From: Tenacibaculum sp. L6
Lineage (GTDB): Bacteria > Bacteroidota > Bacteroidia > Flavobacteriales > Flavobacteriaceae
Length of the DNA stretch: 64,000 nt
Assembly: GCF_028823685.1 (NCBI RefSeq)
Contig: NZ_JAPEHZ010000005.1
Location: 1-64,000, forward strand
Reading direction: 5' to 3'
In this document: in pieces, positions 2,654-59,144 of the stretch
Layout of the letters: each line of letters opens with the position of its first letter
Numbering within the stretch: the first letter of the stretch is position 1
Program-made: the position numbers and the translations under genes
The notes under the pieces: generated by a model
Told to the model about the DNA's origin: nothing
Database searches by the model: none
Seen by the model: only the letters and a program-made list of their open reading frames with translations

Positions 2654-4462
2654 TTAGAAGCAGTATTTATTTTCTGCTTTTAATTTTTCTGCGATTGTAT
2701 TACGTAATTCAACTACGTTAGGGTAGTTTGCATACTTTGTAAAACGCTTAAGTCCCATTAACATCATACGTTGCTCATCACCTTCAGCGAAAGAAATAAT
2801 TCCTTCTCTTGCACTTTTGGTAATAATTTCAACAGCATTGTATAAGTATAACTTAGCCATTGCAATCTGTTCTTTTTGAGCATCTTCACCAAAACGCTTC
2901 GCGTTCTTTTCTGTTCTTAAAATTCCAGATTCTGCCATGTATATTTCAATTAAAATATTTGAAGCAGCAGTTAATAACTGTTGGTGTTGCTCTAACTCTG
3001 GTCCAAATTTTTGTAAAGCAGCTCCTGCAACCATTAAGAATACTTTCTTAAGTTTAGCAAGAATTTCTTTTTCTTCTGAGAATAATTCAGAATAATCTGG
3101 AGTATCGAAAGAAGGAATTCCCATTAATTCGTTTTGAACAGCCATTGCAGGGTTTAATAAATCTACATGACCTTTCATGGCTTTTTTAACTAACATTCCT
3201 ACCGATAATAAACGGTTAATTTCGTTAGTTCCTTCGTAGATACGAGCAATACGAGCATCTCTCCAAGCAGACTCCATTGGAGTTTCTTCAGAGAATCCCA
3301 TACCTCCGTAAATTTGGATTCCTTCATCAGCACAGTTTTGTACGTCTTCAGAAACCGCTACTTTTAAGATAGAACATTCAATAGCGTATTCTTCAACACC
3401 TTTTAATTCTGCTTCTTGATGCGTGTTTCCTTCAGATTCACGAATAGCGATTCTGTCTTCAATATTTTTAGCAGCTCTGTATGATGCAGACTCACCAACA
3501 TAAGCGTTAGTAGCCATTTCAGCTAATTTCATTTTAATAGCTCCAAACTCAGCAATAGGAGTTTTAAATTGCTTACGCTCGTTAGCATAGTTTACAGCAT
3601 GAGTTACAATTCTTCTTTGAGAATCTAAACAAGCTGCTGCTAATTTAATACGACCAACGTTTAGAGCGTTCATTGCAATTTTGAATCCACCACCACGTAC
3701 AGATAACATGTTTTCAACAGGAATTAAGGTATCGTTGAAAAATACCTGACGAGTAGAAGAGGCACGAATACCTAATTTGTGTTCTTCTTCTCCTAAAGTT
3801 ACTCCGTTAGGGTTGTTTTTATCATATTCTAAGATAAAACCAGTAATGTTTTTATCGTCTTCAATACGAGCAAAAACGATGAAGATTTCAGCAAAACCTG
3901 CATTCGAAATCCACATTTTTTGTCCGTTAATTTTGTAATGCTTTCCGTCTTCAGTTAATTCAGCAGTAGTTTTACCTGAGTTCGCGTCAGATCCTGCTCC
4001 TGGTTCTGTTAAACAGTAAGCTCCGAATTTTTCACCCATTGCTAATGCAGGAACGTATTTTTGCTTTTGCTCTTCAGTACCGTATAAAGTAATTGGCATA
4101 GTACCAATACCTGTGTGTGCTCCAAAAGCAGTACTAAAAGACCCTGTTCCACTAGATATGTAATCACATGTTAACATTGTAGAAACGAATCCCATTCCTA
4201 ATCCACCATATGATTCAGGAACTGCTACACCTAAGAATCCTAATTCACCAGCTTTACGCATAGTTTCTTCGGTAAGTGCATAGTCTTTCTTTTCAAAACG
4301 TTCTTTATGAGGAATGATTTCGCGGTCGTTAAATTCTTTAACCGCATCACGCATCATTGTTTGCTCTTCTGAAAAATCTTCAGGAGTAAATATATCTTCG
4401 CATTTTGTTTCTTTTACTAAGAACTGCCCTCCGCGTAAAAGATCTTTAGTTAATTCTGACAT
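2654..4462 (-). CDS. fadE: acyl-CoA dehydrogenase, FadE/YusJ type
   Basis: A 602-residue flavoprotein that should introduce the alpha-beta double bond into fatty acyl-CoA, the first step of beta-oxidation. The acyl-CoA dehydrogenase core occupies residues 30-410: the CLTEPGAGSDA flavin/substrate segment near 150, and YGGMGFSEETPMESAWRDARI followed by YEGTNEINR near 410-435, where the catalytic Glu of this subfamily is expected. The additional C-terminal helical domain (to 602) matches the long form of B. subtilis FadE rather than the short 380-residue mitochondrial form. It is the last gene of the operon after fadN, fadA and the inserted four-helix-bundle gene. No membrane segment is seen; the protein should be cytoplasmic. 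Confidence 0.93.
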   Translation of the reverse strand: MSELTKDLLRGGQFLVKETKCEDIFTPEDFSEEQTMMRDAVKEFNDREIIPHKERFEKKDYALTEETMRKAGELGFLGVAVPESYGGLGMGFVSTMLTCDYISSGTGSFSTAFGAHTGIGTMPITLYGTEEQKQKYVPALAMGEKFGAYCLTEPGAGSDANSGKTTAELTEDGKHYKINGQKMWISNAGFAEIFIVFARIEDDKNITGFILEYDKNNPNGVTLGEEEHKLGIRASSTRQVFFNDTLIPVENMLSVRGGGFKIAMNALNVGRIKLAAACLDSQRRIVTHAVNYANERKQFKTPIAEFGAIKMKLAEMATNAYVGESASYRAAKNIEDRIAIRESEGNTHQEAELKGVEEYAIECSILKVAVSEDVQNCADEGIQIYGGMGFSEETPMESAWRDARIARIYEGTNEINRLLSVGMLVKKAMKGHVDLLNPAMAVQNELMGIPSFDTPDYSELFSEEKEILAKLKKVFLMVAGAALQKFGPELEQHQQLLTAASNILIEIYMAESGILRTEKNAKRFGEDAQKEQIAMAKLYLYNAVEIITKSAREGIISFAEGDEQRMMLMGLKRFTKYANYPNVVELRNTIAEKLKAENKYCF

Positions 4463-4477
4463 AGTATATTAGATTTT

Positions 4478-4505
4478 AAGATTCAAGAGCCAAGAGTCAA
4501 GACTT
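4478..4505 (+). repeat. heptamer word array, one arm flanking the four-helix-bundle gene
   Basis: Four in-register 7-nt units AAGATTC-AAGAGCC-AAGAGTC-AAGACTT (consensus AAGANTC) on the plus strand. The last units overlap the stop codon of the four-helix-bundle gene (4497-4499). A related array lies in the opposite orientation at 4854-4889, giving imperfect inverted ends. Confidence 0.75.
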
Positions 4506-4853
4506 ATTCAGACCAGATTGGAAACTTGAAATCATTTTTTGTATTGACTTAATTTTTTGTTCTAATTCTTTAAACTTTTCTTCAGATAGGTAGCTTTCAT
4601 TAAAAGCAATAATTAATTGTGTTTCCCATTCAAATGAAGAACCTAAGCTATCTTCTAAATATTTATTAAAATGTTTGTTAGTGCTTTTACTTGAACCCTC
4701 AGCTATGTTAGAAGGAATAGAAACAGCACATCTATTCATCTGAGAAACCAAGCCAAACTTTTCAAAGTCTGGAAAGGTTCTAGTTAATTTATAAGAATCA
4801 GAAACTAAATTCATGCTTTCAGTCCAAATTTTTAATTTTTTGAAATTGTGCAT
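4497..4853 (-). CDS. four helix bundle protein (S23/IVS-encoded family)
   Basis: A 118-residue protein of the four-helix-bundle family known from intervening sequences inside 23S rRNA genes (S23) and related to the Avd accessory proteins of diversity-generating retroelements. Typical marks are the start MHNFKKLKIWTESMNLV, the middle segment MNRCAVSIPSNIAEGSSKS (residues 40-58), the KYLEDSLGSSFEWETQL stretch and the C-terminal IQKMISSFQSGL helix. Family members bind nucleic acid as a basic pentamer in Avd; the function of stand-alone copies is not known. It sits between fadA and fadE on the same strand and interrupts what is otherwise a compact beta-oxidation operon. Heptamer word arrays touch both its start and stop codons, and no reverse transcriptase or rRNA gene is nearby, so it looks like a cassette inserted in the operon. 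Confidence 0.9.
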   Translation of the reverse strand: MHNFKKLKIWTESMNLVSDSYKLTRTFPDFEKFGLVSQMNRCAVSIPSNIAEGSSKSTNKHFNKYLEDSLGSSFEWETQLIIAFNESYLSEEKFKELEQKIKSIQKMISSFQSGLNKS

Positions 4854-4889
4854 CGTCTTGTTTCTTGATTCTAATAGTCTTGTTTCTTA
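4854..4889 (-). repeat. heptamer word array, second arm flanking the four-helix-bundle gene
   Basis: Read on the minus strand: AAGAAAC-AAGACTA-TTAGAATC-AAGAAAC-AAGAC, a run of 7-nt words with one 8-nt unit. It starts at the fadA stop codon (4887-4889) and ends at the ATG of the four-helix-bundle gene. It is the inverted counterpart of the AAGANTC array at 4478-4505. Confidence 0.7.
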
Positions 4890-6077
4890 ATTTAGGAATT
4901 CAAAAATACCAGCAGCACCTTGACCAGTACCTACACACATGGTTACCATTCCGTATTTGTTATTCATGTTACGCTTACGCATTTCATCAAATAACTGAAC
5001 AGATAGTTTACCACCAGTACATCCTAATGGGTGACCTAAAGCAATTGCTCCACCATTTACGTTAATGATATCCGGATTTAAATCTAATTCGCGAATAACA
5101 GCTAATGATTGTGAAGCAAACGCTTCGTTTAGCTCAATTAATTCAATATCACTTTGTTGTAAACCTGCTTGTTTTAATGCTTTTGGAATAGCTGCTACTG
5201 GACCAATACCCATAATACGAGGTGGTACTCCTGCTGCTGCATAACTTACTAAACGAGCTTCTGGTTGAATACCTAACTCTTTTACCATATCTTCACTCAT
5301 TACCATTACGAAAGCAGCTCCATCACTAGTTTGCGATGAGTTACCAGCCGTAACAGAACCATTAGCAGCAAATACAGGACGTAATTTTGCTAAGGCTTCT
5401 ACTGTTGTTCCACGACGTGGACCTTCGTCTTTAGTAACGATGTAATTTCTTGTAGCGCGTTTTCCGTTTCCATCAATGTAAGTTTCTTCTACATCAATTG
5501 GAGCTATTTGGTCTTGGAAACGGTCACTATCTAAAGCTTTTAAAGCTTTCATGTGCGACTCGTATGCAAATTTATCTTGGTCTTCACGAGATACATTGAA
5601 TTGTTGCGCAACTGCTTCTGCAGTATTACCCATTCCCCAATAATAATCTTCGTGACCAGCATTTACGATATCGTAGTTTAATTCTGGTTTAAAACCTGTC
5701 ATTGGTACAGAACTCATACTTTCTGCTCCACCAGCAATAATACACTCTGCCATTCCAGATTGAATTTTTGCTACTGCCATACCAATAGTTTCTAATCCTG
5801 ATGAACAGAAACGGTTTACGGTAACTCCAGGTACATCTACAGAATCTAATCCGATTAATGAAATGATTCTTGCCATGTTTAATCCTTGAGAACCTTCTGG
5901 CATAGCATTACCAACAATAACATCGTCGATACGCTTTACGTCGAATTCAGGCAGTTGAGTCATCATATATTTGATGGTCTCAGCAGCTAATTCATCAGCT
6001 CTTTTAAATCTGAACACACCTTTTTTAGATTTCCCTACGGCGGTTCTATATCCTTTTACTATATATGCTGTTTTCAT
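4887..6077 (-). CDS. fadA: acetyl-CoA C-acyltransferase (3-ketoacyl-CoA thiolase)
   Basis: A 396-residue thiolase that should cleave 3-ketoacyl-CoA with CoA to acetyl-CoA and a shortened acyl-CoA, the last beta-oxidation step. The nucleophilic Cys is in VNRFCSSGLETI (about residue 90), the NEAFASQSLAV segment is near 345, and the C-terminal pair GGAIALGHPLGCTGGK (His about 354) and MCVGTGQGAAGIFE (Cys about 384) complete the active site. Length and motifs are those of a normal degradative thiolase. It is 4 bases downstream of fadN, with which it should form the multienzyme complex. Its stop codon overlaps the word array that flanks the four-helix-bundle gene. Confidence 0.95.
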   Translation of the reverse strand: MKTAYIVKGYRTAVGKSKKGVFRFKRADELAAETIKYMMTQLPEFDVKRIDDVIVGNAMPEGSQGLNMARIISLIGLDSVDVPGVTVNRFCSSGLETIGMAVAKIQSGMAECIIAGGAESMSSVPMTGFKPELNYDIVNAGHEDYYWGMGNTAEAVAQQFNVSREDQDKFAYESHMKALKALDSDRFQDQIAPIDVEETYIDGNGKRATRNYIVTKDEGPRRGTTVEALAKLRPVFAANGSVTAGNSSQTSDGAAFVMVMSEDMVKELGIQPEARLVSYAAAGVPPRIMGIGPVAAIPKALKQAGLQQSDIELIELNEAFASQSLAVIRELDLNPDIINVNGGAIALGHPLGCTGGKLSVQLFDEMRKRNMNNKYGMVTMCVGTGQGAAGIFEFLN

Positions 6078-58969: not shown

Positions 58970-58978
58970 TAGGAATTT

Positions 58979-59141
58979 GAAAACGAAAAGTGAAAAGTGA
59001 AAAATGTAAAACTAAAAGTGAAAAGTTACAAGTGCGTATAGCCTACAGCATATAGCTTACAGCTTTCAGCCAAAAGTAATCTAACAATCAAATAATCCAA
59101 ATATCTAAGCACCCAAGTATCCAAACATCTAAAAATCTAAA
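58979..59141 (+). repeat. tandem tract of heptamer and octamer word arrays
   Basis: Three consecutive arrays in register: eight 7-nt units of the AAAAGTG type (58979-59034; for example AAAAGTG, AAAAATG, AAAAGTT, ACAAGTG), five 7-nt units of the CYTAYAG type (59035-59069: CGTATAG, CCTACAG, CATATAG, CTTACAG, CTTTCAG), and eight 8-nt units of consensus NATCYAAN (59078-59141: AATCTAAC, AATCAAAT, AATCCAAA, TATCTAAG, CACCCAAG, TATCCAAA, CATCTAAA, AATCTAAA). The tract fills almost the whole gap between deoC and deoD and ends 3 bases before the deoD ATG. Units vary, but their length does not. Confidence 0.85.
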
Positions 59142-59144
59142 ATA

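Follow-up and report, generated by a model that had tools for sequence, protein, structure and literature searches.

What is a gene labelled "23S rRNA intervening sequence protein" doing inside a protein operon? The question is raised by the first 64,000 nucleotides (nt) of contig NZ_JAPEHZ010000005.1 of Tenacibaculum sp. L6 (the window), where a four-helix-bundle gene carrying this PF05635/TIGR02436 label stands between fadA and fadE of a fad operon and is bracketed by arrays of 7-nt words. The answer that we favour, and to which we give somewhat more than an even chance, is that the window element is a small cassette of the intervening-sequence (IVS) type located outside ribosomal RNA (rRNA), in which inverted arms of degenerate words of about 7 nt enclose an S23/IVP gene.

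The gene encodes 118 amino acids (positions 4497 to 4853, minus strand) and matches PF05635 23S_rRNA_IVP (E-value (E) of 8e-38; 129.3 bits in the profile search against a cut-off of 33.8) and TIGR02436 (E 3e-33), and there are solved structures of relatives (2gsc, 2rld). Its upstream host gene is the thiolase gene fadA (4887 to 6077, minus strand; stop codon at 4887-4889), homologues of which are found in relatives, and its downstream host gene is the acyl-CoA dehydrogenase gene fadE (2654 to 4462, minus strand; start codon at 4460-4462); we take both names to be right from an earlier, sequence-only reading of this DNA and from general knowledge. The stop-side (right) arm, at 4474 to 4506 on the plus strand, consists of AAGANTC-type heptamers, of which AAGATTC AAGAGCC AAGAGTC AAGACTT stand in register at 4478-4505, and it shows lag-7/8 periodicity (p = 0.0005 by shuffling). 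The start-side (left) arm, at 4854 to 4889 on the minus strand, extends from the fadA stop codon to the gene's ATG and is made of AAGAAAC-type words, reading T AAGAAAC AAGACTA TTAGAATC AAGAAAC AAGACG from position 4889; one of its words is 8 nt long, and a 19-nt unit recurs at a spacing of 22 nt with 89% identity. Overall, the 64-kilobase (kb) window contains three merged word arrays, as compared to a mean of 0.15 and a maximum of 1 in 20 block shuffles.

The sequence-only reading had proposed that inverted 7-nt word arrays surround this gene and touch the codons of the gene and of fadA. The inverted arrangement is borne out by the sequence and is general in the family, and the contact is real; it is an overlap and not mere touching, where the stop-side words cover the gene's last codons and its TGA, and the start-side words begin within the fadA TAA. 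Measured against the features of a 23S IVS, the window element (L006) has the S23/IVP four-helix-bundle protein and has inverted ends that could pair into a stem enclosing the gene: its two sides are mutually inverted (shuffle p = 0.02), the predicted RNA fold pairs the two arms so that they close the gene, and family-wide counts agree. It also has the tandem 7-nt units in intergenic DNA that characterize bacterial heptamer simple repeats. What it does not have is a position within a 23S rRNA gene, as the 64-kb window contains no rRNA match. By itself, the single copy in the window is moderate evidence, which becomes strong through the family-wide flank results.

These results come from three sets of loci. 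Set 1 has 98 loci from Tenacibaculum and relatives, which are the best-scoring ones and not a random draw (11 loci of the window genome, including 2 that score under the Pfam cut-off, 29 more given by the match search, and 58 from the upper part of its list); they form 69 clusters with 68 usable representatives. Set 2 has 79 named loci, the best 79 of at least 572, nearly all Bacteroidota by title, with both flanks testable in 77; they resemble the window protein, which favours fad-operon copies. Set 3 has 14 plasmid loci, from 14 of 21 plasmid records, 19 of the 21 being cyanobacterial by name. For inversion, each upstream flank was compared with the downstream flank (shuffle p ≤ 0.05 with a +1 correction), using other genes of the same loci as controls; for periodicity, the controls were segments 400 nt away from the flanks. 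Flanks are mutually inverted at 37/68, 56/77 and 8/14 loci in sets 1, 2 and 3, versus 2/19, 8/67 and 1/11 control genes; without the +1 correction, which is looser, the set 1 counts are 34 and 41 of 68. Likewise, the check on other four-helix-bundle genes that the sequence-only reading had suggested finds periodic flanks in 67/136, 85/156 and 21/28 cases versus 6/134, 8/149 and 2/28 control segments, with 7 as the commonest best lag (34/67, 46/85 and 18/21 periodic flanks). That reading would have been undermined by a lack of periodic flanks elsewhere, which is not the case because other family members have periodic inverted flanks. The counts versus controls also led us to reject chance word matches as an explanation.

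Moreover, the words vary among elements (AAGANTC, GAGAAAA, AGTATTGAG, TCTAAAAA and others; on plasmids, for example, AGTAGGG in L155, AAAAGCT/AAAAGCC in L160 and GGTGACA in L159), and the two arms of an element tend to remain matched. In particular, when lineages are compared at one locus, the better partner of a left arm is the right arm of its own element in 97 of 102 fadA-fadE pairs and 162 of 185 fadB-fadA pairs, and arm matching is higher within than across elements at 16 of 25 loci (Wilcoxon p = 0.0025); pair counts here, and those below on gene versus flank identity and on substitution rates, are not independent. Because a left arm fits its own right arm best at a shared locus, the arms of one element tend to change together, either through concerted change or through replacement of the entire element. 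These findings bear on a rival explanation in which the arrays are slippage-born simple repeats that gather in intergenic gaps, and the gene adjoins them merely as a fellow gap-dweller. Heptamer repeats are indeed described as frequent in certain bacteria, with polymerase slippage as a proposed cause (PMC4679880; PMC4692102, in the sections cited here). However, slippage alone gives neither inverted arms around a gene nor arms that are matched despite word change, other genes of the same loci seldom have inverted flanks, and strict arrays are rare in sampled same-genus genomes without the gene (see below), which together make this explanation very improbable.

The cassettes are also regular in their orientation. 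Across sets 1 and 2, mostly Bacteroidota, the gene is in the sense of both neighbours at 131 of 134 typed loci (65/65 and 66/69, with 3 and 10 loci untypable) and at none is it antisense; among the plasmid loci, where 4 are untypable, 5 of the 10 typed are co-directional. The two fad gaps hold 20 and 15 of 191 loci. Other gaps recur in relatives, presumably sufA-sufB (9 loci), sufC-sufD, hmgA-hppD and ruvC-hemW, as named from the sequences. On three cyanobacterial plasmids (L159, L160 and L163), the gene lies within clustered regularly interspaced short palindromic repeat (CRISPR) operons, between cas6 and cas4 in two records and between cas10 and a cmr3-family gene in one. Further, a four helix bundle gene of Flavobacterium columnare, located between the guanylate kinase and nicotinate-nucleotide adenylyltransferase genes, has been assigned to phage regions (PMC5524665, in the part cited); it may be such a cassette instead.

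A comparison of orthologous fad gaps, which the sequence-only reading had called for in search of empty sites, finds three states. Out of 55 fadA matches, 52 were fetched and 51 genomes of the genus were parsed (two cut by contig ends and one paralogue were excluded). In these 51 genomes, the fadA-fadE gap is empty in 28, short in 14 and gene-size in 9, and the fadB-fadA gap is empty in 24, short in 18 and gene-size in 9; G079 is outside the 51, though its gene stands on both sides of its fadA. Empty gaps measure 3-6 nt (fadB-fadA) and 14-28 nt (fadA-fadE) in the first 44 parsed genomes, with maxima of 27 and 29 nt among the genomes added later. Many short gaps are word hairpins without a gene, within a class that also takes in decayed genes and a hairpin of another, CCC-rich kind (L078, L091, L092 and L094). 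For example, the fadA-fadE gaps of G061, G063 and G076 retain one arm together with the tail end of a disrupted gene, as judged by eye against L050, and 7 of the 98 set 1 loci have in-frame stops in the gene. Gene copies are more numerous in genomes where a fad gap is occupied than where both are empty (p = 1.4e-5, with no correction for descent). Strict word arrays (18 of 24, the threshold used first) number 22 per 800 kb in ten gene-rich genomes versus 3 in five gene-less genomes (p = 0.014), and 44 versus 11 at a threshold of 17 of 24 (p = 0.012), in a 1.6-Mb sample of 20-kb stretches at chosen round coordinates, which are not random; none of the sampled arrays is near a helix-bundle gene.

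Three side observations concern these sites. A gene-less GAGAAAA palindrome (L002, 120-185) lies about 1.2 kb from a gene-bearing GAGAAAA element of the same genome. Where the fadB-fadA gap is occupied, 19 of 27 genomes use CGN as the last arginine codon of fadB; where it is empty, 2 of 24 do so (p = 9e-6, with no correction for descent). By eye, the end of fadB and the start of the insert make a short palindrome in several occupied gaps (L045-L096), as if the coding end of fadB had been drawn into the hairpin.

Between species, several elements are nearly identical in surroundings that have diverged by 4-11%. The window element has no differences in 424 nt between the window genome (G000) and G078, while their flanks have 37 and 46 per ~900 nt (synonymous divergence, dS, of fadA of 0.16). 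The fadB-fadA element of G061 and G034 has one difference in 472 nt versus 87 and 96 per ~900 nt in its flanks, where the closest ones lie 33 and 39 nt from the element (fadA dS of 0.53), and a gene-less 68-nt hairpin shared by G078 and G028 has no differences versus 61 and 71 per ~900 nt. Tenacibaculum larymnensis (L169) has an identical gene in the same place, with flanks that are 95.0% and 93.9% identical. In 40 of 48 pairs from the same locus, conservation of the gene exceeds the flank mean. Conservation of the neighbouring genes was considered as the cause of element identity and was rejected on the element versus flank comparisons and on dS. It is this spread at the same site from species to species that speaks best for mobility. 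Another account of the same pattern is ordinary homologous recombination of short tracts, with the element as a passenger and no special drive; this account shares the anatomy of the cassette explanation and contests its drive only, so that the chances we give to the two overlap. The near copies do stand at the same locus, and tracts of a few hundred bases are, from general knowledge, plausible for natural recombination. However, the low-divergence tract coincides with the element in several pairs, including the gene-less hairpin, and we regard the passenger account as possible but rather unlikely.

The ratio of nonsynonymous to synonymous substitution rates (dN/dS) of the gene is 0.085 (summed over 20 overlapping pairs), which indicates that the protein is under strong purifying selection. 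In a protein tree with 80 rows, locus labels need 39 changes versus 59 when shuffled, and the fad copies cluster (8 changes versus 24.5 shuffled). Over 30 rows, the fadB-fadA and fadA-fadE copies are mixed (9 changes versus 10.0), as if elements change between both gaps of one fad operon, in a tree that is weakly resolved and a named set that is biased to fad. The selection and the long residence at the same loci, together with the sense orientation, are what would be expected from an ordinary, non-mobile host gene, such as an RNA-binding regulator or a chaperone, whose arms are regulatory stems, terminators or autoregulatory sites and whose empty gaps reflect gene loss. Set against this are the elements that are near-identical between species while their flanks are 4-11% apart, the in-frame stops, the gene-less palindromes that occupy the same gaps, and a copy number that varies between 0 and 16 matches from genome to genome in a single genus (the window genome, a draft that is 98% complete, has 9 copies that pass the Pfam cut-off, plus 2 weak matches). 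Overall, we consider a host gene of this kind unlikely.

Could the element be moved in trans by the enzyme of another element, either a reverse transcriptase (compare Avd) or a Y1/RAYT transposase (compare REPINs)? REPIN/RAYT systems and miniature inverted-repeat transposable elements resemble the cassettes in being small, palindromic and intergenic and in existing both with and without a gene. Unlike theirs, the cassette arms are variable words and not a fixed repeat; moreover, the Y1-type transposase that marks REPIN/RAYT systems has no match in G017, G020 and G022, which hold 11, 9 and 4 copies of the cassette gene, and one match in G000. As for reverse transcription, PF05635 and Avd are described as homologous in the cited part of PMC10053308, and the window protein is a distant relative of the Avd of diversity-generating retroelements by profile, with weak scores that are below the curated cut-offs (PF22296, E 1.5e-4, 22.6 bits versus 40; NF033474, E 4e-4, 20.7 bits versus 80). 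The reverse transcriptase domain RVT_1 has matches in 8 of the 15 gene-bearing genomes tested and no match in the other 7, including the window's draft genome, which in this respect is unlike one with a diversity-generating retroelement. A dependence on reverse transcriptase or RAYT was set low, with RVT_1 and Y1 missing from several of the carriers tested, and movement in trans is quite improbable.

Several observations weigh against a mobile cassette with paired word arms. In the window, the start-side array alone is not significantly periodic at lag 7/8 (p = 0.71), and the RNA fold of the whole element is not unusually stable (z = -1.38, with 11 of 100 shuffles as good). Across the family, 31/68, 21/77 and 6/14 loci in sets 1, 2 and 3 have no significant inverted match, the arms at 9 of 25 loci match no better within than across elements, and of the 10 plasmid loci that could be typed, 3 run antisense to both neighbours. 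The gene is not above its flanks in 8 of 48 same-locus pairs, where the median advantage is merely 3.9 points, and the element has diverged about as much as a flank in the two most distant of 12 pairs (48 differences in 424 nt for G000/G072 and 61 in 440 nt for G022/G002). The array counts of gene-rich and gene-less genomes are not clearly different at looser or stricter thresholds (108 versus 79 at 16 of 24, p = 0.09; 12 versus 1 at 19, p = 0.09), and the words of 18 gene-less arrays match the gene-bearing elements of their own genome no better than those of other genomes (combined p = 0.22). Finally, the sequence-only reading had called the element a small mobile one, of which the same-site spread between species stands, and jumps to new sites were not seen: no recent move to a new locus was found, with all 16 multi-member nucleotide clusters (≥78%) sharing a locus or one side. 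Such clustering of near copies by locus also fits vertical descent with ordinary recombination.

The closest known system is the 23S IVS itself. According to the cited parts of PMC4990558, the helix 45 IVS of Coxiella is ~430 nt long and has a 28-bp stem of inverted ends, tandem GACAGAT heptamers precede its S23p gene, RNase III cleaves within the IVS stem, and the function and origin of IVSs are called unclear. The cassettes share with it the protein family, the inverted ends, a gene in the sense of the host transcript and heptamers before the start; they differ from it, as so described, in having word arrays on both sides that vary by element, and from 23S IVSs in having gene-less and empty states at the same gap and, for the window element, in having a protein operon as host. 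The two are joined by L167, on plasmid AZO_p2 of Azospirillum lipoferum 4B, which is a 23S rRNA gene by Rfam; it contains a helix-bundle match (tblastn E 5e-9, frame integrity not checked) that is flanked, by eye, by inverted heptamer arms. Because this 23S IVS has like arms and the Coxiella IVS has the features above, the operon cassettes can be described as IVS anatomy outside rRNA, and the idea of a stand-alone IVS-like cassette in a protein operon, first put forward by the sequence-only reading, is upheld by L167, the three gap states and the periodic inverted flanks of the family. Its view that such word arrays were undescribed needs to be narrowed, since tandem heptamers ahead of S23p in the Coxiella 23S IVS are already published (PMC4990558, in the part cited); it holds for the operon class, where we found no description of cassettes of this gene family with heptamer arms among the papers listed from the open-licence literature, as judged by titles and the openings of abstracts, most subscription journals being outside its scope.

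Tandem heptamers are also known from cyanobacteria, xanthomonads and Beggiatoaceae, including TAACTGA (PMC4679880) and GGGANTN or GGGGA(C/T)T (PMC4692102). As presented in the cited sections, these repeats resemble the cassette arms in being intergenic, tandem, partly degenerate and often near stop or start codons, and differ in that inverted repeats are reported just for some G-rich ones; no transfer mechanism is evident for them (PMC4679880), and the two papers make no tie to the gene, since their main texts contain neither "S23" nor "four-helix". Similarly, the P6b stem of the cyanobacterial (Nostoc) tRNA-Leu intron is a hairpin of 7-nt words (motifs TDNGATT and NNTGAGT) in which the motif has been swapped repeatedly and independently at one site; unlike the cassettes, it sits in a group I intron, and the cited part of PMC4476775 describes no gene in its loop and no link to PF05635.

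It is a tentative idea, about which we are more doubtful than confident, that one element family underlies the 23S IVSs, the stand-alone operon S23/IVP genes and the heptanucleotide repeats of cyanobacteria, Bacteroidota, xanthomonads and giant sulphur bacteria. On this view, arrays of heptamers would be arms or gene-less relics of such elements, and the protein would recognise paired 7-nt words by their spacing and not by a fixed sequence, so that words could drift as long as both arms change together. The TAACTGA pattern occurs in 4 of 296 Flavobacteriales genomes, and its arrays directly adjoin the gene at two loci (L042 and L291). A tie between TAACTGA and the gene was not found among seven listed array places, of which the gene adjoins one; L042 was found via the gene and is left out of this count, and G020 has further places. 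The reversed TAACTGA pattern, used as a control, has 8 matches in G135 and 2 + 7 in G337, where other heptamer arrays are present.

How would such a cassette work? Its anatomy, its sense placement, its matched arms, its empty and gene-less states, and its near-identity in diverged surroundings can be read from the sequences, and the following steps extend them. The cassette would lack a promoter of its own, and its arms would pair into a stem around the gene within the operon transcript. By analogy with rRNA IVSs, RNase III may cut the paired arms; such cutting would separate the host messages, and therefore the insertion would be tolerated and nearly harmless. The helix-bundle protein would be made from the host operon transcript and would serve the element, most likely by binding the paired arms. 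Spread between strains would proceed by replacing the empty allele of the same gap, with new gaps rarely reached, and elements would decay into gene-less hairpins.

The window has other word arrays and possible relics. The word-array scan finds a gene-less array after the fadE stop codon (2453 to 2486). Within a single gap (58978 to 59144), three different word arrays are stacked (GTGAAAA-, TATAGC- and TCTAAAAA-like) without a helix-bundle gene, and no inverted pair was found within this stretch; the genes around it look like deoC and a purine nucleoside phosphorylase gene. A partial four-helix-bundle match (L015; 12407 to 12571, plus strand; profile positions 52-106, E 3.5e-4, below the Pfam cut-off) is perhaps a decayed copy of the gene. 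Word-like sequence follows its stop.

The same arrangement is seen in many Bacteroidota, on cyanobacterial plasmids and in one rRNA gene, which suggests that small insertions of this class are widespread and have gone largely unrecognised. If this is true, many "four helix bundle protein" genes in metabolic, suf and cas operons would be insertions and not members of those operons. Further, a shared architecture would join two matters that are so far unexplained, the intergenic heptamer repeats and the role of the S23/IVP protein.
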